Origin: Fodinibius salsisoli
GTDB lineage: Bacteria; Bacteroidota; Rhodothermia; Balneolales; Balneolaceae
Direction of reading: 5' to 3'
Length of the DNA stretch: 64,000 nt
Assembly: GCF_026229185.1 (NCBI RefSeq)
Contig: NZ_JAGGJA010000003.1
Location: 1-64,000, forward strand
The notes below the pieces were generated by a model. The model saw only the letters and a list, made by a program, of their open reading frames with translations. It was not told where the DNA came from and searched no databases. The translations under genes were made by a program, and so were the position numbers. Positions within the stretch are counted from its first letter, which is position 1. Each line of letters begins with the position of its first letter. Shown piece after piece: positions 3,285 to 63,854 of the stretch.

Positions 3285-3329
3285 ATATTGAATATAGTAT
3301 TCTTCCTCTAATAATTGTTAATTAAAATC

Positions 3330-4448
3330 ATGGGCAGTTTTAAAATTTACCGTCAGTACGACGCCTTGGACTGCGGTCCTACCTGTCTGCGCATGGTGGC
3401 CAAGCATTACGGGCGAAGCTATACCATGGAGACCCTGCGCAACCGGAGCGGCATCAATCGTGAAGGGGTGTCACTTCTCGGTATCAGTGAGGCGGCCGAG
3501 AGTATTGGTTTCCGAACGGTGGGTGCCAAGATTACCTGGCAGCAGCTGAAGGAACAGGCTCCGCTGCCTTGCATCGGGTACTGGGATCAAGAGCACTTCG
3601 TGGTGGTGTATCGTATTAAGCGCGACAAAGTTTATATCGCTGATCCGGCGAAGGGAAAGGTAAGCTTGCCAAAAAAAGATTTTCTGCAACATTGGTTGAA
3701 TGCAAAGACGAACGGTGAACGTACCGGTATAGCGCTTTTGTTGCATACCACCCCGAAATTTTATGAGCTGGATGATGAAGAGGCGGGACAGATGAATTTC
3801 AGCCTGCTGGTTCAGTATGTCATGCCATACAAAAAATTGTTGTTTCAACTGGCGCTGGGGCTGGCGGCCGGCAGCATACTGCAGCTTATTTTCCCATTCC
3901 TCACCCAGGCGGTGGTGGACATTGGAATTCAGACCCGCGATCTGAATTTTATTTACATTATTCTGGCCGCACAGATCATGCTTTTTGCGGGTCGCACGGG
4001 GGTGGAGTTTATCCGTTCGTGGATACTATTGCATATGAGCACCCGCATTAATATCTCTATTCTATCGGATTTCCTAATTAAGCTGATGAAGTTGCCGATG
4101 GAGTTTTTCGATACGAAGATGACCGGGGATATCATGCAACGGATGGAGGATCACCGACGGATTCAGGATTTTCTGACCAACCAGACGCTTAGCACGCTCT
4201 TTTCATTTATGAACTTGCTGGTGTTTTCCCTGGTACTGGCCTATTATCATATGCTGATCTTTACAGTCTTCTTAATTAGCAGCGTCCTCTATGTGGGTTG
4301 GGTGCTGGTATTTTTGAAAAACGCCGAGAGCTCGACTACCAGCGGTTCGGTATTTCTTCCAACGACCAAAGCAAGGTCATTCAGCTCATCCAGGGAATGC
4401 AGTCCATTAAGCTCAATACCTGTGAGCGGCAAAAACGCTGGGAATGGA
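3330..4448 (+). pseudogene. C39-peptidase ABC exporter (bacteriocin type), frameshifted and C-terminally truncated
   Basis: The start at ATG 3330 gives MGSFKIYRQYDALDCGPTCL, the canonical C39 peptidase N-terminus with its catalytic Cys; the catalytic His and Asp are in HFVVVYRI and IADPAKG. Transmembrane segments of the ABC permease follow (from about residue 165). The frame breaks at the A5 run 4317-4321: one extra A would restore FLKKRRELDYQRFG...SIKLNTCERQKR. The sequence then runs directly into the end of an IS3 transposase (4449 on), so the last permease helices and the whole nucleotide-binding domain are lost (about 375 of some 730 residues remain). An intact copy would cleave GG leaders and export the peptides encoded around it. 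Confidence 0.85.
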
Positions 4449-4548
4449 AATACGATTATAACCACAACCGACCCCACAAATCGCTGGGGTACAAAACACC
4501 GGTAGAACTACTACCTTAACCGAAACCCTCTACTTTTGAGTGGTCCGA
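4449..4548 (+). mobile_element. IS3-family transposase remnant (OrfB C-terminus and end)
   Basis: Codons in frame with the second half of the exporter read YDYNHNRPHKSLGYKTPVEL and stop at 4519. The YNxxRPHxSLGYxTPxE signature is the C-terminus of IS3-family OrfB (DDE integrase). About 30 bases after the stop (CTCTACTTTTGAGTGGTCC) are probably part of the element's right end. The rest of the element is gone, so the insertion was followed by a deletion that fused exporter and transposase. Confidence 0.8.
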
Positions 4549-10815: not shown

Positions 10816-11067
10816 ATGGTAAAGATAAATGGGTTTAATTTTGATATTAAGTCAATTTTAATAGCAGTTATATGCTCAATATTTAGTTTGGGATTGTTTA
10901 TGCTACCTGAAGCTGAGTTATCAGCTCAAAATTACGAAGTAAATGAAGTTTATAATGTAGAAGAACCATGTGGAGACGATGGAGTTGATGAAATAATCCA
11001 TGGTAAAAGAAAGGGCTTCTTAGGATGCTGGGGTAGTGATTCAACCTGTAAGACAAAGTGTAAATAA
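10816..11067 (+). CDS. Small secreted Cys-containing peptide, NVEALA-like (peptide 4)
   Basis: 83 residues with an N-terminal hydrophobic signal (ILIAVICSIFSLGLFMLP) and a likely signal-peptidase site at LSA-Q near residue 38. The mature part reads NYEVNEVYNVEEPCGDDG and ends CWGSDSTCKTKCK, with four cysteines. It has no GG leader, so it would be exported by Sec rather than by a C39 exporter. The NVE...CG pattern recalls the NVEALA family of Bacteroidales peptides, which also sit next to propeller lipoproteins. A terminator-like hairpin and propeller 5 follow. Confidence 0.65.
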   Translation: MVKINGFNFDIKSILIAVICSIFSLGLFMLPEAELSAQNYEVNEVYNVEEPCGDDGVDEIIHGKRKGFLGCWGSDSTCKTKCK

Positions 11068-47487: not shown

Positions 47488-48999
47488 ATGAAGCGAAAAG
47501 ACTTCCTTAGACTTGCAAGCATTGGAACCGGAATAGCAACGTTGTCTCCTAGCCTGCTGGCTTGCCGGTCGGACGGAAATACCGATCTGGTACTGCCTGA
47601 TAACGCTTTTTCTCGTCCCCTGGCCTTCCCGGAGAAGATTCGCGCCACCGATTTTGAGCTGGCCGCCGAAACCGCCCGGCGAAAACTGGCCGGAGATGCA
47701 GCCTCCGATGTCTATACCCTCAACGGCTCACTGCCCAGCCCCACCATCCGGGTTAAGCGAGGGGAAAGCCTGGCGATCGACTACCAAAATCGCATCGACC
47801 AGGAGAGTATCATTCACTGGCACGGGCTGATCGTCCCGCCTGACATGGACGGACACCCCAAAGATGCCGTCCAGCCCAGCCAGACCTACAACTACCGCTT
47901 CGATATTGACCAGCGGGCCGGCACCTACTGGTACCATCCGCATCCCGACAAGCTGACCGGCCCGCAGGTGTATCGCGGGCTGGGCGGTCTTTTCATCATT
48001 GAAGACGAGGAGGAACAGGCGTTGAACCTACCGTCCGGAGACTACGAGTTGCCGCTGATCGTCCAGGAAAAAAGATTTAGCGACAGTGGAGAGATGACCT
48101 ACAGTCTGAACAGGATGGCCCGCATGATGGGATTCTTTGGTAATACCCTGCTCGTGAACGGCATGCAGGCGCCCTACCACGAGGTAAGCAATCGCTTTTA
48201 CCGGCTGCGCCTGCTGAACGGTTCGAATGCCCGCATTCTGGATTTTTCCTTCAGCGACAACAGCTCGTTTTATGTTATCGGAAGCGACGGCGGGCTGCAC
48301 GATCGACCGTGTGAAATCTCATCCATTACCTTAACGCCGGGCGAACGAGCCGACCTACTGGTGGACTTCAGTAGCTATAGCGTGGGACAGGAAATCCGCA
48401 TGACGGCCGAGGCTCGCAATGGCATGGGCGGGATGATGGATGGCATGATGGTCGGTGGAGGGATGATGAATGATGAAAATAATAACGAAGAAGGAATGAT
48501 GGGGGACGGAATGGGTTCCCGGAACAGCGGCGGAGCCTTCCTGGAATTTCGCGTCACCAATGAGGAACAAGACCCTTTTCGCCTGCCACAAGCCCTTACG
48601 GAACTGTCGTTCCCAAACGAAGCCGACACCGACCGCACCCGCCGCATCGATCTGACCATGGAGATGATGCAGGGACCAGCCATCAATGGAAAGTTTTTCG
48701 AAATGCTGCGGACGGATCAAAAAGTGCAGCAAGGCGCTCTGGAAATCTGGGAATTCAACAACGGCACCATGATGCCGCATCCCATGCACCTGCACGCCAC
48801 CCAATTTAAGATGCTGGACCGTAGCGGGGGTCCCCTGGCCCCGCACGAGCGCGGCTGGAAAGACACGGTCCGCATCGATTCCGGAGAAACCGTGCGGGTG
48901 CTTACTAAATTTGATGCCGAAAAAGGGCTCTACGTTTTTCACTGCCACAACCTTGAGCACGAAGACAATGGCATGATGGCGAATTTTGAGATTGTATAA
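47488..48999 (+). CDS. Multicopper oxidase (CueO/laccase-like) lipoprotein
   Basis: 503 residues. The N-terminus is KRKDFLRLASIGTGIATLSP then LLACRS, possibly a Tat-like or lipoprotein signal. Copper sites: HWHG (about residue 110), WYHPHPD, HPMHLHATQF, and HCHNLEHEDNGMM with the T1 Cys-His pattern. Residues about 311-345 are a Met/Gly/Asn-rich insertion (GMGGMMDGMMVGGGMM), as in CueO-type cuprous oxidases. It probably oxidises Cu(I) in the periplasm. It starts the second part of the copper block. Confidence 0.85.
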   Translation: MKRKDFLRLASIGTGIATLSPSLLACRSDGNTDLVLPDNAFSRPLAFPEKIRATDFELAAETARRKLAGDAASDVYTLNGSLPSPTIRVKRGESLAIDYQNRIDQESIIHWHGLIVPPDMDGHPKDAVQPSQTYNYRFDIDQRAGTYWYHPHPDKLTGPQVYRGLGGLFIIEDEEEQALNLPSGDYELPLIVQEKRFSDSGEMTYSLNRMARMMGFFGNTLLVNGMQAPYHEVSNRFYRLRLLNGSNARILDFSFSDNSSFYVIGSDGGLHDRPCEISSITLTPGERADLLVDFSSYSVGQEIRMTAEARNGMGGMMDGMMVGGGMMNDENNNEEGMMGDGMGSRNSGGAFLEFRVTNEEQDPFRLPQALTELSFPNEADTDRTRRIDLTMEMMQGPAINGKFFEMLRTDQKVQQGALEIWEFNNGTMMPHPMHLHATQFKMLDRSGGPLAPHERGWKDTVRIDSGETVRVLTKFDAEKGLYVFHCHNLEHEDNGMMANFEIV

Positions 49000-49932: not shown

Positions 49933-50301
49933 ATGAATATCCGCGGCACATATTGGATTGCTTCATTGAGCCTGCTCTTATCGCTTAGCTTGGCATTGCC
50001 ATACTGTTGTCATGCGGATATACCTGAATTGTTTTTTCATCATCAGCCATCGCATGCTTCGCACAGCCATCAGTCGGATGCTCGGCAGTGTAATTGTGGT
50101 CACGAACTTGTCAAAGACTTTCAGAAAACGAAGAAAGTTGTTAGCAGTCCGACCTTATTACTTTCTTCGGATGTTACATTACAAGATCGGATCATATTTG
50201 CGGTCAGTATCGATTTTCTTTCGATACCCCAAATACAACCGGGCATACTAAGTGACTCTGGTCCTCCCCTCCATCTTTTGAATAGTGTCTTTCTGAATTA
50301 G
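49933..50301 (+). CDS. Small secreted His/Cys protein with LLNSxFLN tail (copy 2)
   Basis: 122 residues. Signal peptide, then CCHADIPELFFHHQPSHASH and CNCGHELVKDF, clear candidate metal ligands. The C-terminus PPLHLLNSVFLN matches the tail of the protein at 44848. A conserved tail with variable metal-rich middle suggests a shared docking or export signal. It precedes the CopA-type oxidase gene. Confidence 0.65.
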   Translation: MNIRGTYWIASLSLLLSLSLALPYCCHADIPELFFHHQPSHASHSHQSDARQCNCGHELVKDFQKTKKVVSSPTLLLSSDVTLQDRIIFAVSIDFLSIPQIQPGILSDSGPPLHLLNSVFLN

Positions 50302-50511: not shown

Positions 50512-52335
50512 ATGAAAGATTCAACGAACACTATAACGCGACGGAATTTCTTACGGTACACTGCTTCCATGGCCGCCTTTGCCGGAGCCAGTGCTTTCCT
50601 ACCAACCTACGCCCTCGCGGGATTTGGCCAGGAAAAACGAGACGTTTTAATCCCGAAGGGCCCCGATAACATCATTGATCTTACTATCGGTCGCATGCCC
50701 AAGGATATAGACGGCCGTCAAGGCAAGGCTATAGGCATCAATGGCACGGTACCGGGACCCTTAATTCGCCTCAGGGAGGGACAAGACGTGATGCTTCGCG
50801 TAAAAAACGAATTGCAAGAAGATACCTCCATTCACTGGCACGGTATTCTGCCGCCGTTTCAGATGGATGGGGTACCGGGCGTCAGCTTCGACGGTATCAA
50901 ACCCGGGGAGACCTTTGAATATCGTTATACGCTGGAGCAAAATGGGACCTACTGGTACCACAGCCACAGCAAGCTGCAGGAACAGCTGGGGCACTACGGC
51001 CCGCTGATTGTCGATCCGGCCGGGTCGGATCCCGTCCAATATGATCGTGAATACCCGGTGGTCCTCTCCGATTGGACCTTCGAGAGCCCCTACGCGGTGC
51101 TCGAAAACCTGAAGAAGTCCGAAGGCTATTACAATTATCAACGCCGGGATGTGGGCGAATTTGTCCGGGATGTGAAAACGAACGGTTTTGGAAAAACAGT
51201 GAAAGATTATGTCTCCTTTGGGCGCATGCGGATGAGTGCCACGGATATCTCCGATATTACGGGAGCTACCTATACATACCTGATGAATGGACGAGGACCG
51301 GCCGCCAACTGGAACGCCCTGTTCAAACCCGGAGAAAAGGTACGTTTGCGATTCATTAACGCCTCGGCGGGCTCGTTTTACGACGTACGCATTCCCGGAT
51401 TGAAGATGACCGTCGTGCATGTTGACGGGCAGGATGTGGAGCCGGTACCCATTGATGAATTTCGGATCGGTATCGCCGAGACCTACGATGTGATTGTAGA
51501 GCCCAAAGAGGAGAAGCCCTACACCATTTTTGCCGAATCCGCCGACCGCAGTGGCTATGCCCGCGGGACGTTGGCTCCGCGCGAGGGCGTGTCAGCTCCA
51601 GTCCCCGCCGAGCGGCCCCGCCCCAAACGGAGCATGAAGGACATGGGCATGAATATGGCCGCTATGGATATGGGCGATATGAATATGAAAGAAGGGGGCA
51701 TGAAAGGAATGGACCACGCAGGCCATGATAGCATGGAGAAGAATAAAGGAGGAATGACTATGAAATCTAATCCTGTCAGACACGGCCCCGACCACCACGG
51801 GCCAGCAGCGGCGGCCGTGGCCAATTACCAGTATGACCGCCTGGATGAGCCCGGCATCGGTCTGGGTAACGATGGACGGAAGGTGTTGGTCTATCGCGAT
51901 TTGAAAAAACTCACCCCGAATATTGATACCCGAGATCCCGAGCGTGAGGTGGAATTGCATCTGACGGGCAATATGGAACGCTACATGTGGTCCTTCGACG
52001 GCAAGCAGTTCCATGAGGTGGACGGGCCCATTGAGTTCCGCCATAACGAGCGGCTGCGACTGGTCCTGGTCAATGATACCATGATGGAGCACCCCATTCA
52101 CCTGCACGGCATGTGGATGGAGCTGGAGAACGGCAACGGGGAGTATAACCCCCGCAAGCATACGTTGCTGATACAACCGGCCCAGCGCATATCGGCGCTT
52201 ATTACCCCGCGCGATAAAGGCCGGTGGGCCTTCCACTGCCACATTCTCTACCATATGGAGATGGGCATGTTCCGCGTAGTCCAGGTGGCTGATGAAAGTG
52301 GAAGTATTTATGATGCCGGCGAAAATTACGGCTGA
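50512..52335 (+). CDS. copA: Copper-resistance multicopper oxidase, CopA type
   Basis: 607 residues. A Tat signal TRRNFLRYTASMAAFAG is at the N-terminus. Copper motifs: HWHG, WYHSHSK, HPIHLHGMWM and HCHILYHMEMGMF. Residues about 374-421 are a Met/Asp/His-rich insertion (MNMAAMDMGDMNM, MDHAGHD), the usual CopA copper-binding segment. It acts in the periplasm with CopB, whose gene follows 71 bases later. 'copA' here means the PcoA/CopA oxidase, not the ATPase. Confidence 0.9.
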   Translation: MKDSTNTITRRNFLRYTASMAAFAGASAFLPTYALAGFGQEKRDVLIPKGPDNIIDLTIGRMPKDIDGRQGKAIGINGTVPGPLIRLREGQDVMLRVKNELQEDTSIHWHGILPPFQMDGVPGVSFDGIKPGETFEYRYTLEQNGTYWYHSHSKLQEQLGHYGPLIVDPAGSDPVQYDREYPVVLSDWTFESPYAVLENLKKSEGYYNYQRRDVGEFVRDVKTNGFGKTVKDYVSFGRMRMSATDISDITGATYTYLMNGRGPAANWNALFKPGEKVRLRFINASAGSFYDVRIPGLKMTVVHVDGQDVEPVPIDEFRIGIAETYDVIVEPKEEKPYTIFAESADRSGYARGTLAPREGVSAPVPAERPRPKRSMKDMGMNMAAMDMGDMNMKEGGMKGMDHAGHDSMEKNKGGMTMKSNPVRHGPDHHGPAAAAVANYQYDRLDEPGIGLGNDGRKVLVYRDLKKLTPNIDTRDPEREVELHLTGNMERYMWSFDGKQFHEVDGPIEFRHNERLRLVLVNDTMMEHPIHLHGMWMELENGNGEYNPRKHTLLIQPAQRISALITPRDKGRWAFHCHILYHMEMGMFRVVQVADESGSIYDAGENYG

Positions 52336-52406: not shown

Positions 52407-53183
52407 ATGAATAGTAAACAAATAAGAATAATCAAATCGCTAAGCGCAGGAGCTTTACTGCTAATGTTGATCGTTGCGATCACAAGTAGCCCTGCTAAAG
52501 GACAGAAAGCTCCCGAATTTAGCAGTGATCTTCTGATGGATAACCAGACCTACGTCTTCTTCATGACTGACCGATTTGAGTATTATCATATTGGCGGTGG
52601 GCCCATTGTGTTGGATGCTCAGGGGTACATCGGCAAGGACCTCCAAAAGATTTGGGTTGAGGTCGAAGGCGAAGCCCTGACGGCTGAAACCGAGGGAGAA
52701 ACAGAACTTGAAGCCCTGTATGGCCGGGCTATTTCGGCCTATTTTGATCTCCGAGCTGGTATTCGATACGATATTGCTTATACAGCCGACCGAACCCAAA
52801 GCCGAGGCTTAGCTGTGGTCGGCATTCAAGGGCTGGCCCCATACCTATTTGAAGTGGACGGGAATCTGTTTGTCAGTCAAACCGGCGATGTATCGGCGGA
52901 ACTGGAGGGCGAATATGATTTCCCCATCACTCAGCGCCTGTGGGGGCAACCACGGGTGGCCACTAGTCTGGCTGTCCAGGACGTGCCCCGGTGGGGCCTC
53001 GGATCAGGATTTAATGACGTGCAGCTGGGGCTCCGACTTCGCTATGAGATTAAACGCGAACTTGCCCCCTATCTGGGAATCTCCTGGTCCCGAAAACTGG
53101 GTGAAACGGCTGATTTTGTTCGGGAAGAAGGCGGTGATCCCAGTACGATAGGACTGGTCGGCGGCCTGCGCATGTGGTTTTGA
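52407..53183 (+). CDS. copB: Copper-resistance protein B (outer membrane beta-barrel)
   Basis: 258 residues with a signal peptide. MTDRFEYYH, VEGEALTAETEGETELEALY, YFDLRAGIRYD and the final VGGLRMWF match CopB/PcoB, an outer-membrane barrel that is the usual partner of CopA. The C-terminal Phe is typical for outer-membrane insertion. It is shorter than many CopB proteins, lacking the Met-rich N-terminal extension. Confidence 0.85.
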   Translation: MNSKQIRIIKSLSAGALLLMLIVAITSSPAKGQKAPEFSSDLLMDNQTYVFFMTDRFEYYHIGGGPIVLDAQGYIGKDLQKIWVEVEGEALTAETEGETELEALYGRAISAYFDLRAGIRYDIAYTADRTQSRGLAVVGIQGLAPYLFEVDGNLFVSQTGDVSAELEGEYDFPITQRLWGQPRVATSLAVQDVPRWGLGSGFNDVQLGLRLRYEIKRELAPYLGISWSRKLGETADFVREEGGDPSTIGLVGGLRMWF

Positions 53184-54701: not shown

Positions 54702-54838
54702 TAGAAACTTCACACATCATTGTAGCAAGTATTAGTACAGGATGTTAACAGATTGACCCATTGTCAATGCACATGGTACATGTTATATAAGATTAGCTAA
54801 AACATTACCAACTAATCTTAAACTAAATTTTGATTATT

Positions 54839-55162
54839 ATGGCTCACCAAGAACATCAAAACCTGATCAATAAACTTTCCAGCTGTCTTGCTGCTTGTGA
54901 ACACTGCGCAGACGCTTGTCTGTCGGAAGATAATATTGATGCAATGGTTGAGTGTATCCGGATCGATCGTGACTGTGCAGAGGTATGTGCGCTGGCAATA
55001 AAATTCGTATCCAGGGACTCGGACTATGCTTCTGCTATTCTGGATCGCTGTGCCGATCTTTGCAGTGCCTGCGCCGAAGAGTGTGGCAAACACGATCATG
55101 ATCATTGCCAAGAATGCGCGAAAGCGTGCCGAGAGTGTGCTGATGCATGCCGGAACTATTAA
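54839..55162 (+). CDS. Four-helix-bundle Cys-rich copper-binding protein (Csp/DUF326-like)
   Basis: 107 residues from ATG 54839. Cysteines recur at CxxC / CxxxC spacing (SCLAACEHCADACLS, DLCSACAEECG, HCQECAKACRECADACR), all pointing into a helical bundle, as in cytosolic copper-storage proteins that hold many Cu(I). No signal peptide, so it is cytoplasmic. A strong terminator follows. Confidence 0.9.
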   Translation: MAHQEHQNLINKLSSCLAACEHCADACLSEDNIDAMVECIRIDRDCAEVCALAIKFVSRDSDYASAILDRCADLCSACAEECGKHDHDHCQECAKACRECADACRNY

Positions 55163-55343: not shown

Positions 55344-55706
55344 ATGGAGCCATTATATCAATACATCATTCTGTTTGGGATGCTCATTGCCACGGCCGGA
55401 TTGGCATGGATGCTCTACCTGATTAAACATTCGCTCGGCGATACGATAGATGAGCCTGGCAAAGATATGCCGACACAAAGTGGCCATCCGTCGCCCGAGC
55501 CTGCCTGGAATCGTTACCACGTGCATTACTATGGTTTTGCCCTGCTCTTTCTGGCCTTTGATATGGAGATGGCCTATATGTATCCCTGGGCAGTGGTGTA
55601 CAAAGAGCTGGGCCTCGTGGCATTGCTAGATATGGGCGTATTTTTGGCTATACTATTTCTTGGGTTGATTTATACCTGGACGCAAAGCGGACTCAAACGT
55701 CAATAA
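55344..55706 (+). CDS. nuoA: Complex I-like subunit A
   Basis: 120 residues with three membrane helices. YHVHYYGFALLFLAFDMEMAY is the NuoA signature (F-L-x-F-D-x-E), including the Asp/Glu of the quinone loop region. It starts the operon; the next gene begins three bases after its stop. Confidence 0.85.
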   Translation: MEPLYQYIILFGMLIATAGLAWMLYLIKHSLGDTIDEPGKDMPTQSGHPSPEPAWNRYHVHYYGFALLFLAFDMEMAYMYPWAVVYKELGLVALLDMGVFLAILFLGLIYTWTQSGLKRQ

Positions 55707-55709
55707 GCT

Positions 55710-57392
55710 ATGACGGAATCAGTAATGAAATACGGCGCTCGCAAGGGCCGGATGAGTTGGTTAAGACGCTGGATCGCCAGGGCATCTGCAAAAAATATTT
55801 GCATTTTTCCCGTGCCTGGTGCAGATATACTGCGATACTATCAAAAAAATATGCAGCTAAACTGTACGATCGCAGCCAACCCGCGCGAAGCCAATGTGCT
55901 TCTGGTCATGGGTGAAATGACCGAAGCCCTGGCCCTGAACGCTGGTGTAGCCTATCAGCAGATCCCACGTCCCCGCGTGTTGGTGTTTGCAGGTCCGGTT
56001 CAATTGCCCTACCTGCCTGAACCGGATGTTCAGATCTCTCTGAGTAATGGTTTTATTGATGAAGCCTTGCCACAAATCCGCCAACGATTAAAGAATCAGG
56101 CCTGGAGCGAAAACGCTGAACCATGGGTGCCAGACTTTCTGTCCGAAATGCTTGAAGATTCTGGAAACGGAGGACATGACCATCATAATCATGACCATGA
56201 CAATGGAGGCCAGAAGGATGATCCACACAATCATAATGGACATAACCATAGTGAACATAATCATGAGGGTCATGAAGATCATAACAGTGAAACCGGGCAT
56301 AATCATGACCATGAACACAATCATGAGGGAGACCATGAGGGTGGCGGCCACGATCACGGCGATATGGATTTCATGTCGATGGTAGCAATGACCAAGGACC
56401 TCCCGCGGCCCAAAGACGGGCTGCCAATGAATCGCAGCGATGTACACTTTGGACCCTTTCACCCCGGTCTGCCCGGTGGACTGTCGGTATTTATGGAGCT
56501 GGACGGCGATACCGTCATTGAGGCAAATATTGAAAATGACTTAACTGCCCGATCGCTTGATGACCTGATGCTGCTGGAGGCCAAACAGTTACCCGACACT
56601 CTGGCTCGATTCAACCCGCTGATGCCGGAGTCGTACCGGCTCCTGGCACGAAAAGCACTTCTAAATGCCTCAGACGACAAATCAACGACTACCTTTTCTT
56701 CTGCTGAACTCATTCAGTTGGAAAGTGAACGCATCGGCAGTCATTTGAACTGGCTGGCAACCTTTGCTAAAACCCTTGGCAACGAGTGGCTGCATCAAGA
56801 GTCCGCCCGATGGCATGCGGCGCACCGCAGCGAAGATATGGCACCTGAAAAACTGCTTGCGTTTCTGGAGCAAATTCGGACTATGCCGTATTTAAAAACG
56901 AAACTGAGCGTTGGAGGGCTCATTCCTGATAAGCTGCTGCATCATCTGTCGGGCCCAGCAGCCAAAGCGACTGGAAAACTGGAGGATGCAAGATCAAGTA
57001 ACGAGCAGTATCTGTCCTTGGATTGGGCACCGATCACCAATACCGAAAATAATGCGTGGGGACGGTTGCTGATGCGTCTGGAGGAGATAGAGCAGAGTCT
57101 TGAATTGATTAACAAGGCCAGAAGGCAGGAATCTAAAACAAATGACTTAAGTTTCTCAGGCTCAGGTGAACGGACGGCGAAGCTGGAAAGCCCGCGGGGC
57201 ACCTTGAGCCTTCATATAACTGTAGAGAATGGAAAGGTGACCCGAGTACAAATAGAAACCCCCTCGAAGCCGCTGGCCGCCTTGGTCCCTACACTAACGG
57301 AAGAAGAGGAACTGTCAGACGCGCTGGTACAGATAGCCTCGCTGGATATTTCGCCTTGGGAAATTGAACTTAAAGGAGCGGGGGGAGAATGA
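55710..57392 (+). CDS. NuoB/NuoD-like fusion with His-rich linker, no Fe-S cysteines
   Basis: 560 residues. Residues about 20-140 resemble NuoB (ANPREANVLLVMGEMTEAL; PRPRVLVFAGPVQ) but lack its CC and GCPP cysteines, so the N2 iron-sulfur cluster cannot form. Residues about 150-225 are almost pure His/Asn/Asp/Glu/Gly (for example HDHHNHDHDNGG). Residues about 245-560 resemble NuoD: FGPFHPGLPGGLSVFMELDG, ESERIGSHLNWLATFAKTLG, GRLLMRLEEIEQSLELI, ESPRGTLSLHI. In GPFHP the first His is kept, but the second (quinone-site) His is replaced. No NuoC part is seen. It overlaps the next gene by 4 bases. It likely docks on NuoA/H without passing electrons by the usual route. Confidence 0.7.
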   Translation: MTESVMKYGARKGRMSWLRRWIARASAKNICIFPVPGADILRYYQKNMQLNCTIAANPREANVLLVMGEMTEALALNAGVAYQQIPRPRVLVFAGPVQLPYLPEPDVQISLSNGFIDEALPQIRQRLKNQAWSENAEPWVPDFLSEMLEDSGNGGHDHHNHDHDNGGQKDDPHNHNGHNHSEHNHEGHEDHNSETGHNHDHEHNHEGDHEGGGHDHGDMDFMSMVAMTKDLPRPKDGLPMNRSDVHFGPFHPGLPGGLSVFMELDGDTVIEANIENDLTARSLDDLMLLEAKQLPDTLARFNPLMPESYRLLARKALLNASDDKSTTTFSSAELIQLESERIGSHLNWLATFAKTLGNEWLHQESARWHAAHRSEDMAPEKLLAFLEQIRTMPYLKTKLSVGGLIPDKLLHHLSGPAAKATGKLEDARSSNEQYLSLDWAPITNTENNAWGRLLMRLEEIEQSLELINKARRQESKTNDLSFSGSGERTAKLESPRGTLSLHITVENGKVTRVQIETPSKPLAALVPTLTEEEELSDALVQIASLDISPWEIELKGAGGE

Positions 57393-58291
57393 GTACCATA
57401 TTGACCTGGATTGCAATTGGACTATTATTTGCTGCCGGCGTCTATTTTGTAGCACTGCTGGAACAATGGTCATTGCAAGGATATTTTGACTGGGCGGCTC
57501 CGTTTAACGCCTTTCTTCGATCTTTCGGCCAGGAAGAAATTCGTACCCGCCGCTACGATACTGTGTTTTACGAGGCTACACCGGTGATCTTCATCGCTGT
57601 GGTACTGCTGGCCGTTGCCATTCTGCCTTTTGCCCGGGAAACAGTTATTCTCGATCTGGGCACCGCCGCGCTCTTCATCAATGCTGCGCTGGTTTATATC
57701 ATGGTTAGTCTCATCATGGCAGGTTGGTCGGCCAACGGCGTGTACGGAATGATCGGCGGTTGGAGAGCTATGGCTCAGCTTATCGCCTACTCCATGGCGG
57801 TAGTGATGGCCATAACGGCAGCTGTAATGCGCGCCGAGTCGATGGCAATGACCCCCATTATACAATCACAGGCTTCGCTTTGGAATATTTTTTATCAGCC
57901 GGTAGGTTTTTTGCTCTTTTACGGAGCCGTAATGGCAATAGCATTTCTTCCCCCTTTTGATCTGCCCACCGCCGAAGGAGAGCTGGCGGGCGGAGCCTGG
58001 GCAGAATTTACCGGTGCCCGCAAAACCCTGTTTCGCTTAGGCCGACTGCTGCTTATACTCACACTTTCCCTGGCGGTTACAATTTTCTTTCTGGGGGGCT
58101 GGCTCGGCCCCTGGCTGCCCGGTTTTGTATGGACGTTCATTAAAACTACACTGGTCGCCGCCTCTTTCTTCTGGGTCGGGCGATATTTTCCCCGCATCCG
58201 CCACGATCACCTGCTGGAGTGGGGCTGGAAGTATGCTGTACCGGCCGCGCTTTTTAACATCCTGCAAGTTGGGATAGTATTACTGTTATGA
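57389..58291 (+). CDS. nuoH: Complex I-like subunit H
   Basis: 300 residues with about eight membrane helices. The quinone-channel motif PFDLPTAEGELAGGAWAEFTG (about residue 190) is the NuoH signature. The usual N-terminal ERKxxGxxQxRxGPNxxGPxG motif is very degenerate (LEQWSLQGYFDWAAPFNAFL). It overlaps both neighbours by 4 bases, a sign of tight translational coupling. Confidence 0.85.
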   Translation: MSTILTWIAIGLLFAAGVYFVALLEQWSLQGYFDWAAPFNAFLRSFGQEEIRTRRYDTVFYEATPVIFIAVVLLAVAILPFARETVILDLGTAALFINAALVYIMVSLIMAGWSANGVYGMIGGWRAMAQLIAYSMAVVMAITAAVMRAESMAMTPIIQSQASLWNIFYQPVGFLLFYGAVMAIAFLPPFDLPTAEGELAGGAWAEFTGARKTLFRLGRLLLILTLSLAVTIFFLGGWLGPWLPGFVWTFIKTTLVAASFFWVGRYFPRIRHDHLLEWGWKYAVPAALFNILQVGIVLLL

Positions 58292-58812
58292 TGGAACTGC
58301 GAATCATATTATTAATTGTCATCGGGCTTATAGCCATCTGGTTTGGTTGGCGTGTGTTTCGTACTGATTCGATGGTGCGTTCGGCCTTTTCTCTGCTGGC
58401 ATCAATGGTGGCAGTAGGTGCAATGTTCTTAGTGATGGAAGCCGAATTCCTGGGTGTGCTTCAGATCATGATGATGGGCACCGAAATGAGCATCATGGCT
58501 ATCTTCATGATGATGTATATGATGGATCCCGGTGGCTTGGGCGAAATGGATATGACCCACCAGGAGAAGCCTTCTATAATAGTTGCAGTCATTTTTGGAG
58601 GTATCTCGCTGGCCGTCATCCTGCTTACAAAATGGGGCGATATTATTGCAGAGGCTCCGACGCCCGCCCAACAAAATCATGATCTGGGGATTGAAGTGAT
58701 GAAACGCTCAATGATGATTTTTGAATCCGCCGGCTTCTCAATTTTAACGGCCATGGTAGCTGCCCTGGCTACCGCTCTTATCATCCACAATAATCAAATA
58801 GAAAAGAACTAG
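58288..58812 (+). CDS. nuoJ: Complex I-like subunit J
   Basis: 174 residues, five helices. AMFLVMEAEFLGVLQIMMMG corresponds to the NuoJ TM3 region, but the usual VYxGA with its Tyr is replaced by MMMGTE. Met-rich helices are striking (MMMYMMDPGG). It follows nuoH with a 4-base overlap. Confidence 0.8.
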   Translation: MMELRIILLIVIGLIAIWFGWRVFRTDSMVRSAFSLLASMVAVGAMFLVMEAEFLGVLQIMMMGTEMSIMAIFMMMYMMDPGGLGEMDMTHQEKPSIIVAVIFGGISLAVILLTKWGDIIAEAPTPAQQNHDLGIEVMKRSMMIFESAGFSILTAMVAALATALIIHNNQIEKN

Positions 58813-58813
58813 C

Positions 58814-59119
58814 ATGGTATTAACGGTAGCATTAATTATAGGTACGATCCTGTTTGGCATCGGGCTCTATGGTGCCCTTAGCCAGACCAACCTGGTAATG
58901 ATCATGATGGGTGTTGAACTCATGCTGGGTGCATCGATGTTGAATCTCGTCGCCTTCTGGCGCTACTTGCATCCGGAAGTTTATTCTATACAGATGTTTG
59001 TGTTGGTTGTAATGACAGTGATGGCGCTCGAAGCCGCTGTGGGGTTTGCCATCGGCACTCAACGCTTCCGCTCCAAAGGTTCGGTCGAATCTGAAGAAGC
59101 CGCTGACTTAAAAGGATAA
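58814..59119 (+). CDS. nuoK: Complex I-like subunit K
   Basis: 101 residues, three helices. Both proton-path glutamates are present: GVELMLGASMLNLVAF in TM2 and MALEAAVGFAI in TM3. This suggests that the proton route through K is kept. Confidence 0.9.
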   Translation: MVLTVALIIGTILFGIGLYGALSQTNLVMIMMGVELMLGASMLNLVAFWRYLHPEVYSIQMFVLVVMTVMALEAAVGFAIGTQRFRSKGSVESEEAADLKG

Positions 59120-59120
59120 T

Positions 59121-61007
59121 ATGGTATACCTGCTTCTTATATTATTATCGCCGGCCGTCGCAAGCCTCTGGGCACTGTATAGTTCCAAAAAAGCGGGATA
59201 CGTTTCTTTATTCGGAGGCACGCTTTCCCTGCTGGCCTCCTCCCTCCTGTTTTTCAAAGTCTCCAACGGTTATTCAGCTGCATGGGAATTTAGCGGACTT
59301 CCGGGGCTTCCCTTTCGGCTTGATATCACTTATCTAAACACTTCACTTTCACTGGTAGTGGCGATAGTCGGTGGATTGATATTGTTGTACGCGGTCGGCT
59401 ATATGGCAGAAGAAAAAGGCAAGGCGCGATTCTGGAGCAGTATATCCCTCTTCCTGGCCTCCATGCAGCTACTGTTGTTTGCCGGTGACTGGATTCTTTT
59501 TGTCATCGCCTGGGAAATATTGGGCTTCTGCTCGTACCTGCTGATCAGCACCAAGTACTGGCAAACCGAAGCCGGGGAAGCCGCCAACAAGGCGTTTATC
59601 CTTAACAGGTTTGCCGACCTTGGTCTCTACATCGGCGTGTTTGTAATTATTCTTTCCAGCGGTTCCAGCGCCATTGTAGAATCGGCTCCTGCAACGATTT
59701 CTCAGTTCGGGGCACTAAGCCTCCTGTTTGGAGTCATGGGCAAGTCGGCCCAGGTACCGTTCCAAAGCTGGCTCACCGCAGCAATGAAAGGCCCTACCCC
59801 GGTGTCGGCACTGCTCCACTCAGCAACGATGGTCGCCGCCGGTATTGTACTACTCATCAAAGCCTTTCCACTGTTTTCCCCTGATATGCCGTTCTGGGTC
59901 GGTGCGATCGGCGGCATTACCGTTCTGATGACAGGGCTGACGGCTATTTTCTCCAATGACATCAAAAAGATGCTGGCTGCCTCAACCTCAAGCCAGCTTG
60001 GGTTCATGATACTGGCCATCGGAGCTGGTTCGACCGGGGCCGCATTGGCGCACCTTCTGGCACATGCCTTCATGAAAAGCAGCTTGTTCCTGGGTGCGGG
60101 AATCTGGCAGCACGGGGCCGGATCAACCCGTTTTGAGAAACTGGCAGGAGCAGGCAGAAAACTAAAAATCACCTTCACCGGTTTTGCTATTTCAGCGGTA
60201 GCTTTGGCAGGTATTCCTCCCTTCATAGGCTATTTTTCAAAAGACGGGATTCTGGCGGCCGGACTGGAATCTTCTCTGCCTGAATGGTATTTCGTTGTTG
60301 CCTTGCTGGGATCTTTACTAACAGCTATATATATGAGCCGAACGTTAGGGATTCTCTGGAAAGGTGATGTAACAGATGGTATCGAAAAACCCAGAGGTCT
60401 GCGATGGATGCAATCCGGGTTGATTCTAATGGTTCTTTTAGTAGTCGGCGGCGGATTATTTTTACACAGCATGATTGAGACCGCCGGTTTTCATCTGCCA
60501 AAAGCTAAAATTGCACAAATCAGCGGACTAGTCGCAGCCCTGGCGGGTCTCACTGTGGGATGGCTGGCCTCTTTTCAAAAGATTGGACACCCCATCACTG
60601 CTTACCTGCGAAACAACTACCCCATCGGAGGCGGCTATCATGCGCTGGTCGTCACACCTGTTATCAAGCTGGCAGCCCTTTGCCGAAGGTTGGATGAACG
60701 CCTTCATCAATTCGTGCTCAAAATTGGACAAAGTGTCCTGAAACTATCATCGGTTGTTGACACGACCGATGAGCGTGTTCATGAGAGCGTGCATGGGGTT
60801 GGACGTATAGGTTTAACTTTGGGAGATTGGTCGGAGCGGTCTGATGAGCAAGGCATCAACGGCTTAATTTTCAAGATTGTGGAGAGCGTCAAAAAAATGG
60901 GGCGACAGGGACAACAAACACAGTCCGGGTTGGTACACCGTGAACTCATGTGGTCGGTCTGGGGAATGGTAGCCTTTTTAATGCTAATGATATTAACGCT
61001 AATGTAA
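59121..61007 (+). CDS. nuoL: Complex I-like subunit L
   Basis: 628 residues with about sixteen helices. Pump residues: IAWEILGFCSYLL (Glu of TM5), KSAQVPFQSWLTAAMKGPTP (Lys of TM7) and SALLHSATMVAAG. The C-terminal third, including an amphipathic region and the final helix ELMWSVWGMVAFLMLMILTL, is present, so it can make the lateral helix. It looks like an active antiporter-type subunit. Confidence 0.9.
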   Translation: MVYLLLILLSPAVASLWALYSSKKAGYVSLFGGTLSLLASSLLFFKVSNGYSAAWEFSGLPGLPFRLDITYLNTSLSLVVAIVGGLILLYAVGYMAEEKGKARFWSSISLFLASMQLLLFAGDWILFVIAWEILGFCSYLLISTKYWQTEAGEAANKAFILNRFADLGLYIGVFVIILSSGSSAIVESAPATISQFGALSLLFGVMGKSAQVPFQSWLTAAMKGPTPVSALLHSATMVAAGIVLLIKAFPLFSPDMPFWVGAIGGITVLMTGLTAIFSNDIKKMLAASTSSQLGFMILAIGAGSTGAALAHLLAHAFMKSSLFLGAGIWQHGAGSTRFEKLAGAGRKLKITFTGFAISAVALAGIPPFIGYFSKDGILAAGLESSLPEWYFVVALLGSLLTAIYMSRTLGILWKGDVTDGIEKPRGLRWMQSGLILMVLLVVGGGLFLHSMIETAGFHLPKAKIAQISGLVAALAGLTVGWLASFQKIGHPITAYLRNNYPIGGGYHALVVTPVIKLAALCRRLDERLHQFVLKIGQSVLKLSSVVDTTDERVHESVHGVGRIGLTLGDWSERSDEQGINGLIFKIVESVKKMGRQGQQTQSGLVHRELMWSVWGMVAFLMLMILTLM

Positions 61008-61010
61008 GTT

Positions 61011-62489
61011 ATGGAGAGTATCACCTTGCCACTATTATCGATTACCACTTTTCTGCCGTTATTAGGCACGCTGGTCATATTACTGGTAAAACCCGATAAG
61101 CCGCGTACCACTTACCGTATTGGCATCGGGGCATCGACCCTGGCCGTAGTTACTTCCCTCGGTATTTGGCTGCGGGGCGTGGGCAGCAGTTTTAACCAGA
61201 TTGAGCAGCTTGAATGGATCCCATCACTTGGTATCGCCTACCGGATGGGCATTGATGGTATTAGCTTTCCTCTTGTTTTGCTCACAACAGTGCTCTTCCT
61301 GACAGCGTTAATCTATTCAGCAAAGATTGAAAAAAGAGCCAACAGTTATGTAATGCTGTTTCTGTTGCTCGAAACAGCATGCCTGGGAGTCTTTATGGCA
61401 CTGGACCTGTTTTTATTCTATGTTTTTTTTGAAGTAACCCTGGTCGGCATGTATTTCATTATCGCCGAGTGGGGACATGAAAATAGCAAGCAAGCCGCCC
61501 TGACTTTTTTCCTTTATACGCTGCTGGGCAGCCTGTTTCTGCTGTTGGCATTTCTGTCGCTCTACCTTCATTCGGATCCGCTTACCTTTGACATGCGAGC
61601 GCTCATCGCCAACCCGCCGCTGACGGGGTTGGCCGCTGCACTGACGTTCTGGGGATTGTTTGTAGCCTTTGCTATTAAAACCCCGCTCGTGCCGGTCCAT
61701 ACCTGGCTGCCCGCCGCTCATACCGAGGCACCGGCCGCTGGCAGTGCTATCCTGGCGGGTGTTCTGTTAAAACTGGGAGCATACGGATTCATTCGTTTTT
61801 CGCTTCAGATGACCCCGGACGCCTTCCAACAGTTTGCTCCATATGTAATAGTAATCTCCGTCATTACCGCCCTCTACGGGGCACTCGTAGCACTGGCACA
61901 GACCGATATCAAGCGGATGGTCGCCTACACCAGTGTCAACCATATGGGCTATATGGTATTTGGCGTTGCCGCCGCGGCTGCCCTGGGAAAAGGTGCTGAA
62001 ACCTCTGCGCTGGACGGTGCCACGCTGCAGATGATCAGTCACGGAGTGGTAACCGGGCTCCTGTTCCTGCTGGTAGGTGCACTGCAAGATCGCACGCAGA
62101 CACGGGAAATGACAGAGATAAGTGGTCTTTTGAAAACATACCCGGTATTAAGCGGGCTGTTCATTGTAGCAGCTTTTGCCTCGCTGGGTCTACCCGGGCT
62201 GGCCCACTTTCCCGCCGAATTTCAGATTTTTCTGGGTGGTTTTAGTGCATATCCGGTTGCCACGGGATTTATTATCCTGGGTCTCCTTATTACCACCGGG
62301 CTGTACCTCCGGGCCATTCAGAGCGTATTCATGGGTAATCCGGAGAAAGAAATTGACAGTAAAGGTGACCTTGACGCCCGTGAGCTGTGGGCTACGGTAC
62401 CACTGATTGCGGCCATTTTTATCATCGGTATCTACCCCGACTTACTGCTTTCAATTATTCACGCAACGACCGAATTGATAGGGTTTTGA
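61011..62489 (+). CDS. nuoM: Complex I-like subunit M
   Basis: 492 residues. FFEVTLVGMYFIIAEWG has the TM5 Glu, AIKTPLVPVHTWLPAAHTEA the TM7 Lys, and AILAGVLLKLGAYGFIRF follows. Full length and conserved, so proton translocation is expected. The gene starts 3 bases after nuoL. Confidence 0.9.
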   Translation: MESITLPLLSITTFLPLLGTLVILLVKPDKPRTTYRIGIGASTLAVVTSLGIWLRGVGSSFNQIEQLEWIPSLGIAYRMGIDGISFPLVLLTTVLFLTALIYSAKIEKRANSYVMLFLLLETACLGVFMALDLFLFYVFFEVTLVGMYFIIAEWGHENSKQAALTFFLYTLLGSLFLLLAFLSLYLHSDPLTFDMRALIANPPLTGLAAALTFWGLFVAFAIKTPLVPVHTWLPAAHTEAPAAGSAILAGVLLKLGAYGFIRFSLQMTPDAFQQFAPYVIVISVITALYGALVALAQTDIKRMVAYTSVNHMGYMVFGVAAAAALGKGAETSALDGATLQMISHGVVTGLLFLLVGALQDRTQTREMTEISGLLKTYPVLSGLFIVAAFASLGLPGLAHFPAEFQIFLGGFSAYPVATGFIILGLLITTGLYLRAIQSVFMGNPEKEIDSKGDLDARELWATVPLIAAIFIIGIYPDLLLSIIHATTELIGF

Positions 62490-62492
62490 CCT

Positions 62493-63854
62493 ATGACTAA
62501 AGACCTGCTGCTCATAATGCCTCAAATTGCAGTATTGCTTACGGCTATAGGCTCGCTCATAGCCGAAATGATGGGCAAGCCCCGTGGAAGTCTGTGGACG
62601 CTTATTATTGGCATGCTTGCCGCTACTGGGGTAGCTATCTCAAAAATTGGAACTATAACCACCGCTTTTTCGAATACCTTTCGGGTTGATTACCTGAGCT
62701 TGTGGGCTGTTATTATTCTTAGTATCACAAACATATTCATTGCCGTACTGGCCCGCAGTGAGCTGAAAAATACGTACCGGGAAGGTACCGTTTATAGCCT
62801 GCTGGTCTTTTCGTTGCTCGGTGCATTAATCATGACCGGGGCTGGCGACATCATGTTTGTGGTGTTAGGCATTCTCATCAGTACCCTTGCGGGCACAGCC
62901 TTAATCGCCTACAACAAAACCGACCCCGCCACAGAGGGTGCTTTCAAATACTATATTTACGGTTCGGTGACGGGGGCAGTCATGCTCTTTGGACTGACCT
63001 TTTGGGTGGGCATTATCGGAAGCACCTATCTTTCGGCACTGAATAATCCGGAGTTGAGTTCGCTGGCCGTTATTTTTGGCTTCATAACTCTACTGATTGG
63101 CATTGGCTACGCGGGATCGCTGGTACCGTTTCATTTTTGGACCCCCGATGCCTTTGAGGCTTCACCCGTTTCTATTGCGGCTTATCTGTCGGTGGTGCCC
63201 AAGGTCGGGGCCATCTTTGCGCTTGCACAGGTGGCAAGGGAGTTGCCGGTGGAGATGCTCAATTGGCCGCTGCTTTTGGGAGTGATCGCCGTGCTCTCGA
63301 TGACCTTTGGGAACGTAGTCGCTCTCTGGCAGGATAATATAGTGCGCTTGCTGGCATATTCCACTATTGCGCAGGCCGGCTATTTTTTACTGGGTGTGGT
63401 AGCCATTCAACAGAATCAACTGGCTGTCAACGCCCTGGTTGTATTCGGGATTGCCTATGCGGTAATGAATGTTGGGGCCTTTGCCATCGTACAGAGCTGT
63501 GGTACCCAATTAAAAGACTTTAACGGGTGGGCCAAACAGAAGCCCTGGCAGGCAGTTGGCATGACGATTTTCCTTTTGTCGTTGGTGGGAGTTCCGCCGC
63601 TGGCCGGATTTGCCGGAAAATTTCTACTGTTCGGGGCAGCGCTCGACGGAGGATACACCTGGCTGGCAGTGGCGGCTATTATCAACAGCGTAATTTCACT
63701 GGCGGTATACCTGCGCATCATTGTACCGACCTACTTTAATGAACCGAAACCGGAACCCATACAATCAACCAAGCCCGGTATACGTCTGGTGTGGATTAGT
63801 ACTTTTGTGTTGACGATTGCGGTCGGGCTCGGACTTCAGTGGTTCCTCGTATAG
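62493..63854 (+). CDS. nuoN: Complex I-like subunit N
   Basis: 453 residues with about fourteen helices. SLVPFHFWTPDAFEASPVSI and AYLSVVPKVGAIFAL are NuoN signatures. It is the last recognisable subunit gene; no NuoE, F, G or I follows before the window ends. Confidence 0.9.
   Translation: MTKDLLLIMPQIAVLLTAIGSLIAEMMGKPRGSLWTLIIGMLAATGVAISKIGTITTAFSNTFRVDYLSLWAVIILSITNIFIAVLARSELKNTYREGTVYSLLVFSLLGALIMTGAGDIMFVVLGILISTLAGTALIAYNKTDPATEGAFKYYIYGSVTGAVMLFGLTFWVGIIGSTYLSALNNPELSSLAVIFGFITLLIGIGYAGSLVPFHFWTPDAFEASPVSIAAYLSVVPKVGAIFALAQVARELPVEMLNWPLLLGVIAVLSMTFGNVVALWQDNIVRLLAYSTIAQAGYFLLGVVAIQQNQLAVNALVVFGIAYAVMNVGAFAIVQSCGTQLKDFNGWAKQKPWQAVGMTIFLLSLVGVPPLAGFAGKFLLFGAALDGGYTWLAVAAIINSVISLAVYLRIIVPTYFNEPKPEPIQSTKPGIRLVWISTFVLTIAVGLGLQWFLV

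Follow-up and report, generated by a model that had tools for sequence, protein, structure and literature searches.

What would a histidine-dominated stretch of about 70 residues do inside a protein that resembles part of respiratory complex I, the textbook redox-driven proton pump? The question is raised by a locus of Fodinibius salsisoli, which we examined within a stretch of 64,000 nucleotides (referred to here as the window). An initial annotation of this DNA had read the tract as a metal-binding linker within a respiratory-type subunit. The answer depends on what flanks the tract, on whether relatives keep it, and on what has become of the redox and proton-conducting parts of the complex to which it belongs.

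A putative metal-binding linker in a fused NuoB/NuoD-like protein

The tract lies in a single open reading frame on the forward strand, with the following parts:

55710 to 57392, + strand: fused NuoB-like / putative metal-binding linker / NuoD-like protein, open reading frame of 560 aa
55710 to 56138, + strand: NuoB-like domain, residues 1-143, without cluster-N2 cysteine motifs (assigned by hhalign, AlphaFold and Foldseek/VIA)
56139 to 56369, + strand: linker slot, flanked by the B-like domain and by FMSM, residues 144-220, 77 aa
56160 to 56363, + strand: His-rich tract, residues 151-218, 21 His in 68 residues
56370 to 56381, + strand: FMSM motif that opens the D-like domain, unchanged throughout a 12-sequence alignment
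56370 to 57389, + strand: NuoD-like domain, residues 221-560, cysteine-free

The description of the tract as His-dominated with Asn, Asp, Glu and Gly was confirmed: its 68 residues comprise 21 His, 13 Gly, 10 Asn, 10 Asp and 7 Glu among others, and the remaining 492 residues of the protein contain nine His. Tandem Repeats Finder detected only 2.2 copies of a 15 bp unit and 2.6 copies of a 9 bp unit in the DNA of the tract, and the codons for each of His, Asn, Gly, Asp and Glu are mixed. The lack of a tandem DNA array, the mixed codons and the retention of the slot across loci (see below) together led us to reject a simple-repeat artefact.

The flanks had been guessed to be of NuoB/D type, and this held for both, for the D-like part by Pfam and for the B-like part by profile and model. 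The NuoD-like part matches Pfam PF00346 above its cut-off (E 6.7e-16), with NCBIfam scores far under theirs, and residues 237-553 of the AlphaFold model align with the NuoD chain of complex I (8e9h_D) with a Z of 31.0 over 313 residues. The NuoB part left only a trace in Pfam (E 0.061, under the cut-off); a five-sequence profile of the domain compared with E. coli NuoB using hhalign gave an E of 3.2e-5 and a probability of 72.5. Since the B part was of low confidence in the full-length model, the domain was folded alone (mean pLDDT 70.6). This separate model retrieved complex I, NDH and group-4 hydrogenase entries with Foldseek (E from 2e-5) and NuoB-type chains with VIA-align (Z up to 11.8), the matched chains being taken as the NuoB subunit from their chain letters and titles. 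No Pfam or NCBIfam model spans the window's fused protein as one unit. The tract and linker have pLDDT values below 50, that is, low confidence, in the full-length model, which suggests that the linker is probably disordered.

To be measured in a relative, the linker had to be followed by FMSM and preceded by a measurable B domain, a rule that omits L034, L045 and L083 for their B domains and keeps among the rows both L117, a duplicate of L036, and the fragment L088. The linker was present in 46/46 measurable loci, the window included, with lengths of 66-378 aa (median 170) and with at least six His and at least nine His plus Cys in every case. This is the pattern that the initial annotation had proposed as a check, namely a tract kept in homologues at varying length, and it contradicts the alternative named there, a local simple-repeat expansion. 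In the linkers of 37 of the 44 tree rows, His is accompanied by one to seven repeats of the heavy-metal-binding (HMBD) type (CPMHPE...CPKCGM and near variants), a likeness to HMBD proteins that the window copy does not share. Pfam PF19335 (HMBD) accordingly matched all four non-Balneolota relatives scanned (L032-L035), with five copies in L035, whose linker also matches the CusB model through HMBD; in the same kind of scan it was absent from the window protein, L031 and L003, and the window linker has His runs only. All five Balneolota members lack HMBD and form one clade (support 100/100), and HMBD is likewise missing from L124 and from L087, a second copy in a Thiogranum genome. With His-rich linkers in Balneolota and mostly HMBD elsewhere, the metal-ligand character has been retained and the type of ligand exchanged. 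Judged by sequence, then, the tract is one filling of a conserved slot rich in candidate metal ligands. Both these ligands and the HMBD family suggest that the linkers bind metal, and putative metal binding by the tract, most likely of copper, is well supported by homology and by the gene context described below.

Two further features of the linkers were noted. The L087 linker (G098:C5) is His-only and built of GSH/ENH/EGH triplets, and another contig of the same Thiogranum genome carries an HMBD-type copy. Three Balneolota members (L053, L054 and L055) have a second long His-rich insertion within the NuoD-like domain.

Cassette composition, distribution and copper neighbours

The fused gene belongs to an eight-gene cassette, NuoA-(B/D)-H-J-K-L-M-N, which spans 55344-63854 on the forward strand. 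Its other members are:

55344 to 55706, + strand: NuoA-like subunit (Pfam PF00507, E 1.9e-25)
57389 to 58291, + strand: NuoH-like subunit (Pfam PF00146, E 3e-59)
58288 to 58812, + strand: NuoJ-like subunit, Met-rich (Pfam PF00499)
58465 to 58527, + strand: residues 60-80 of NuoJ, helix 3 by homology, with Met63 in place of the canonical Tyr59
58814 to 59119, + strand: NuoK-like subunit, rich in Met, with Glu36 retained and Glu or Asp at position 72
59121 to 61007, + strand: NuoL-like antiporter subunit, channel residues Glu144/Lys229/His254/Lys399 kept
61011 to 62489, + strand: NuoM-like antiporter subunit (TIGR01972, 506 bits, above the cut-off)
62493 to 63854, + strand: NuoN-like antiporter subunit (TIGR01770, E 6.2e-84, under its cut-off)

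A promoter and terminator scan 5' of NuoA yielded nothing above chance. The membrane genes of such cassettes are currently annotated as NADH dehydrogenase subunits. A canonical cluster of NuoA, B, C, D, E, F, G and H lies elsewhere in the source genome, and a NuoK copy scoring well above that of the cassette was found in 30/30 host genomes searched, copies that we take as belonging to ordinary complex I.

The cassette ranges over Balneolota, Actinomycetota, Alphaproteobacteria and Gammaproteobacteria, and is plasmid-borne in two of these four groups. Among 72,556 plasmid records it was found on 12 plasmids; on all 12 the fused gene, or its larger piece, is annotated as 'heavy metal-binding domain-containing protein' and is adjoined by A, H, J, K, L, M and N in conserved order. 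The annotation of L045 splits the fused gene in two. In six alphaproteobacterial plasmids (L037, L040, L042, L044, L045 and L046) a DUF6629 family gene was observed near the cassette. A search with a profile of the D domain (E 1e-20 or better, seed genomes counted in the totals) gave matches in 16/369 genomes of Gammaproteobacteria and 19/346 of Actinomycetota, two and three of these, respectively, being from the sister branch described below, in 1/385 of Alphaproteobacteria, which is the seed genome itself, and in 3/345 of the source's own phylum, the window's included. Within a set of 97 close relatives, 47 had some match at E 0.001 and five, again including the window's genome, a strong one; the weaker matches are presumably ordinary NuoD.

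The window also contains several copper-related genes upstream of the cassette:

47488 to 48999, + strand: CueO-like multicopper oxidase (NF008205, E 6.8e-114, under the cut-off)
50512 to 52335, + strand: multicopper oxidase (Pfam Cu-oxidase domains)
52407 to 53183, + strand: CopB copper resistance protein (Pfam PF05275, E 7.4e-72)
54830 to 55162, + strand: Csp1-like, Cys-rich DUF326 copper storage protein (Pfam PF03860, E 9.5e-17; Csp1 family TIGR04401, E 2.1e-8, under the cut-off)

The last of these is directly upstream of the cassette and has an apparent TTG start in the list of open reading frames. We also noted two small open reading frames with His-rich stretches, one at 49933-50301 of the window (HHQPSHASHSHQSD) and one at 3606-4001 of L052 (HEHPAKKAAHSHSHDHS), which lie on either side of the cassette.

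Copper context was defined as the presence within 10 kb of at least one of multicopper oxidase, CopB, copper P-type ATPase, CsoR, DUF326, CusA and CopD. By this measure, 28/48 family loci have copper genes nearby, compared with 1/40 control stretches from host genomes and 0/20 ordinary nuo loci, and two or more such genes were present at 21 family loci and at none of the control stretches. The seeds for this search came partly from family loci, and the count without the 11 donor loci is 18/37; the 48 loci also include near copies (L038/L044/L045, L040/L046, L043/L047 and L127-L129), and dropping six of these gives 23/42. The duplicate L117, which is counted for channel residues and linkers, is left out of the copper, tree and Met-content counts. 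The copper link is strong in Actinomycetota (15/17), fair in Balneolota (4/5) and Alphaproteobacteria (7/11) and weak in Gammaproteobacteria (2/15), where some loci lie on short contigs; flanks are shorter than 10 kb at contig ends. Multicopper oxidases are neighbours of 10 of the 48 loci, and at the plasmid loci L037 and L038 no copper gene was found within the stretch examined.

A sister branch separates the copper neighbours from the tract. Its ten loci (L089, L090, L133, L134 and L205-L210) encode a more distant fused BD protein that lacks the metal tract and whose linker is a short G(Q/H)GGxGM(M/T/S)GGxP stretch; in four aligned members GM(M/T)GG stands at about the place of FMSM. A and H to N were seen in 7/10 of these loci, with L133 and L210 on short contigs, and on another short contig, that of L089, the gene after BD encodes a copper ATPase and NuoH was not detected. 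Copper genes occur at 6/10 sister loci, and directly upstream of NuoA stands CopB in L208 and L209 and CsoR in L134 and L210. Tract-free relatives near copper genes imply that the tract cannot be the sole link to metal and that the copper link is older or wider than the tract, which on this comparison is an add-on and not essential to the core.

Redox sites, proton channels and methionine content

An alignment of nine family members with two canonical NuoB sequences revealed that the CC, GAC and PGCPP regions, which form the site of cluster N2, are deleted or replaced in all nine; the four cluster-N2 cysteine ligands that would mark a respiratory complex I were not found. The second His of HPxxHG in NuoD, the YLHRG region and the NuoH loop contribute to the quinone site. 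In the NuoD-like domains of the same nine members (9/9) the second His is gone, leaving HPGLPGG, FPGLPGG or close variants, and the YLHRG region is not kept, with about 30 residues missing. The D-like domain of the window has no cysteines, and some relatives have a few there. In a three-way alignment the quinone-channel loop of the window's NuoH is shortened, and across the family the position of E. coli NuoH Glu157 is replaced in 48/48 (Ser in 31, Ala in 17). NuoH E36 falls in a gap of the family-wide alignment and is aligned in the three-way alignment, and is therefore not claimed as lost.

A search of about 10 kb around each of the 48 family loci gave no match (E 1e-8) to NuoB, C, E, F, G or I; this scope takes in the cassette neighbourhood, and such subunits may be encoded far away in trans. 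The same queries matched 17/20 ordinary nuo loci; the three controls without a match (L243, L245 and L247) are regions surrounding NuoK in Balneolota, where the redox genes may be located elsewhere. An ordinary second complex I was rejected, given the lost redox motifs and the failure to find NuoB/C/E/F/G/I near the 48 loci. The label of respiratory-type subunit does not stand either, as Fe-S ligands and quinone-site motifs are gone and no NADH module was found near the cassettes.

The residues of the proton channels have fared otherwise. They were counted over 49 loci, including the duplicate L117; of these, the fragment L088 has none of the genes concerned except A, L034 and L083 lack A, and L120 lacks N. 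E144, K229, H254 and K399 of NuoL are kept in 48/48, as are E144, K234 and K265 of NuoM, where H322 is kept in 47 and E407 in 45. NuoK E36 is invariant (48/48), and the position of E72 is Glu in 44 and Asp in four. NuoA D79 and E81 are both kept in 47/47. For NuoN, K395 is kept in 47/47, K247 in 45 and K217 in 42; E133 is not kept, with Leu or Val in 45/47. Taken at the level of sequence, these patterns indicate a complex that has lost its redox chemistry and kept its proton channels.

A second departure from complex I concerns methionine. NuoJ has a Met content of 11.2% in the family (n=47; range 9.8-13.8%) and 9.3% in the sister branch (n=7; 8.5-11.0%), compared with 3.2% in canonical NuoJ (n=21, 20 from host genomes and one from E. 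coli; 1.7-6.5%), the canonical range overlapping neither of the others. NuoK is similarly rich (8.8% family, 8.4% sister, 3.9% canonical), with ranges that just touch. Enrichment was not seen in NuoH (3.6% vs 4.0% canonical) or in NuoL, M and N, which are somewhat Met-poorer than their canonical counterparts. NuoA, close to canonical in overall Met (4.6 vs 4.1%), gains the motif FDMEMAYMYPW (Met74, Met76 and Met79; pattern DMEMxxM) together with His59, gains present in at least 85% of 45 family members, in 7/7 of the sister branch and in at most 20% of 18 canonical NuoA.

The clearest single change is at the position of E. coli NuoJ Tyr59, which is Met in 54/54 cassettes (47 family, seven sister) and Tyr in 21/21 canonical sequences. 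Helix 3 of NuoJ carries family Met positions at 61, 62, 63, 67, 70, 74, 76, 78 and 79; a test for a single Met face on this helix was not significant (P 0.69 for family positions, 0.14 for shared ones), and we therefore claim no geometric Met ladder. A study of mammalian complex I describes helix 3 of NuoJ as rotating, and places the E-channel between the quinone cavity and NuoN (PMC8357420). The Met changes thus fall within the coupling region, outside the antiporter subunits.

Candidate functions and relation to known systems

The cassette resembles several known systems in part. Like respiratory complex I (NDH-1, NuoA-N), it has homologues of A, B, D, H, J, K, L, M and N with channel residues kept, and it shares the fold of the D-like domain (Z 31.0) and probably of the B-like domain (Z up to 11.8); unlike complex I, its B and D are fused around a metal-ligand linker, C, E, F, G and I were not found nearby, the Fe-S and quinone-site residues are missing, and J and K are Met-rich. 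Mrp cation/proton antiporters, which consist of an MrpA-G set without NuoB/D/H homologues, are likewise redox-free and have channel subunits related to NuoL/M/N/K, whereas the cassette keeps NuoA, H and J and a B/D peripheral arm, with the order and subunits of complex I. A likeness to group 4 [NiFe] hydrogenases and MBS (6cfw, 6u8y) is seen in the D-like profile, whose best PDB-sequence match is the MBH alpha subunit (98.8 bits); in contrast to these enzymes, no NuoB-, C- or I-type subunit was found near the cassette, and the window's D-like domain, being cysteine-free, lacks the two cysteine pairs that ligate NiFe in the large subunit and so has no NiFe site.

The closest systems found in print are partial NDH-1 operons. 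Seven-gene nuoAHJKLMN operons are described as partial NDH-1 and as marine adaptation genes in Salinispora (PMC3314556), Kocuria flava (PMC6002675) and Streptomyces (PMC4018334), and for Nitrosococcus oceani a membrane arm NuoAHJKLLMN, with two L, is listed at Noc0474-0481 (PMC3772326). As described, these operons have the cassette's seven membrane genes A, H, J, K, L, M and N and no redox module; neither a B/D fusion nor a metal linker is mentioned in the passages on them, nor any tie to copper. A literature search, with most subscription journals and bioRxiv outside its range, returned no metal-binding complex-I-like cassette, these operons being the nearest match.

With the redox parts lost, the channels kept and copper neighbours common, a proton machine may have been re-purposed for copper. 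Copper handling, probably through proton-coupled export, is overall the explanation that fits best, and one that we put forward tentatively, at somewhat less than an even chance. The flexible tract, composed of His runs here and of HMBD repeats in most relatives, would capture copper or another soft metal on the cytosolic face and deliver it to the core, at what was once the quinone/E-channel region. There, FMSM, the DMEMxxM motif of NuoA and helices of NuoJ and NuoK that are rich in Met could form a soft-metal site or path. Passage or binding of metal in that region would be coupled to the flow of protons through K, L, M and N. The likeliest form of such coupling is proton-driven export of metal to the periplasm, the compartment in which the neighbouring multicopper oxidase and CopB act. 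The identity of the metal, its direction and transport as such are what we infer, export out of the cytosol being the option that fits the neighbouring genes best. The fully specified version, a complex-I-derived, proton-driven transporter of copper (or soft metal) that has exchanged the redox arm for a metal-capture arm and has a Met-lined path at the quinone/E-channel, Met having replaced the conserved NuoJ Tyr, we regard as possible, with less confidence than the broader statement.

The main rival to copper export is a metal-gated, Mrp-like ion exchanger or proton channel, in which metal on the tract would switch the complex on or off under metal stress, as the initial annotation had suggested, here with respiration taken out. 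Intact proton channels and a tract that is an add-on of one branch are both consistent with such gating, and partial nuoAHJKLMN operons have been read as ion pumps in print (PMC3314556); by itself, however, gating does not account for the Met-rich J and K of family and sister branch alike or for the copper neighbours of the tract-free relatives, and we consider it possible, with less confidence than copper export. A passive metal buffer, with the linker only storing or sequestering metal on a marine sodium/proton pump otherwise unrelated to metal, would account for His-rich and HMBD linkers that vary widely in length and type, and similar partial operons are tied to marine strains in print; the slot kept in 46/46 measurable loci, the association with copper genes and the Tyr to Met change in 54/54 NuoJ argue against it and make it improbable. 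The subunit that holds the metal slot is the one in contact with the membrane arm, and multicopper oxidases are neighbours of 10/48 loci, as might be expected if copper on the tract replaced the Fe-S clusters and Cu(I) oxidation reduced quinone and pumped protons. Such a copper-driven redox pump is very doubtful, as the NuoD quinone motifs are lost, the window's NuoH loop is shortened and NuoH Glu157 is replaced in 48/48, and a linker modelled with very low confidence, as disordered stretches usually are, would be a poor electron conduit. Finally, a complex I in decay, in which a His repeat has expanded locally, would explain the lost Fe-S and quinone features and the repeat-like stretches seen in several linkers, and is scarcely credible given channel residues kept across four bacterial groups, gene order kept on 12/12 plasmids and a linker in 46/46 measurable loci.

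Under copper export or metal gating alike, a complex that moves copper or is gated by it would be a copper machine of a kind undescribed in the literature found. It is still debated how the peripheral arm of complex I drives proton channels far away from it. A natural relative with the channels in place and metal binding instead of electron transfer would uncouple these two parts and provide a redox-free test system for coupling.

Away from the cassette, the open reading frame at 3315-4505 of the window resembles, by eye, a peptide exporter of the C39-peptidase type, and further downstream, at 10816-11067, a small peptide with Cys is encoded; together these could form a secreted-peptide system.
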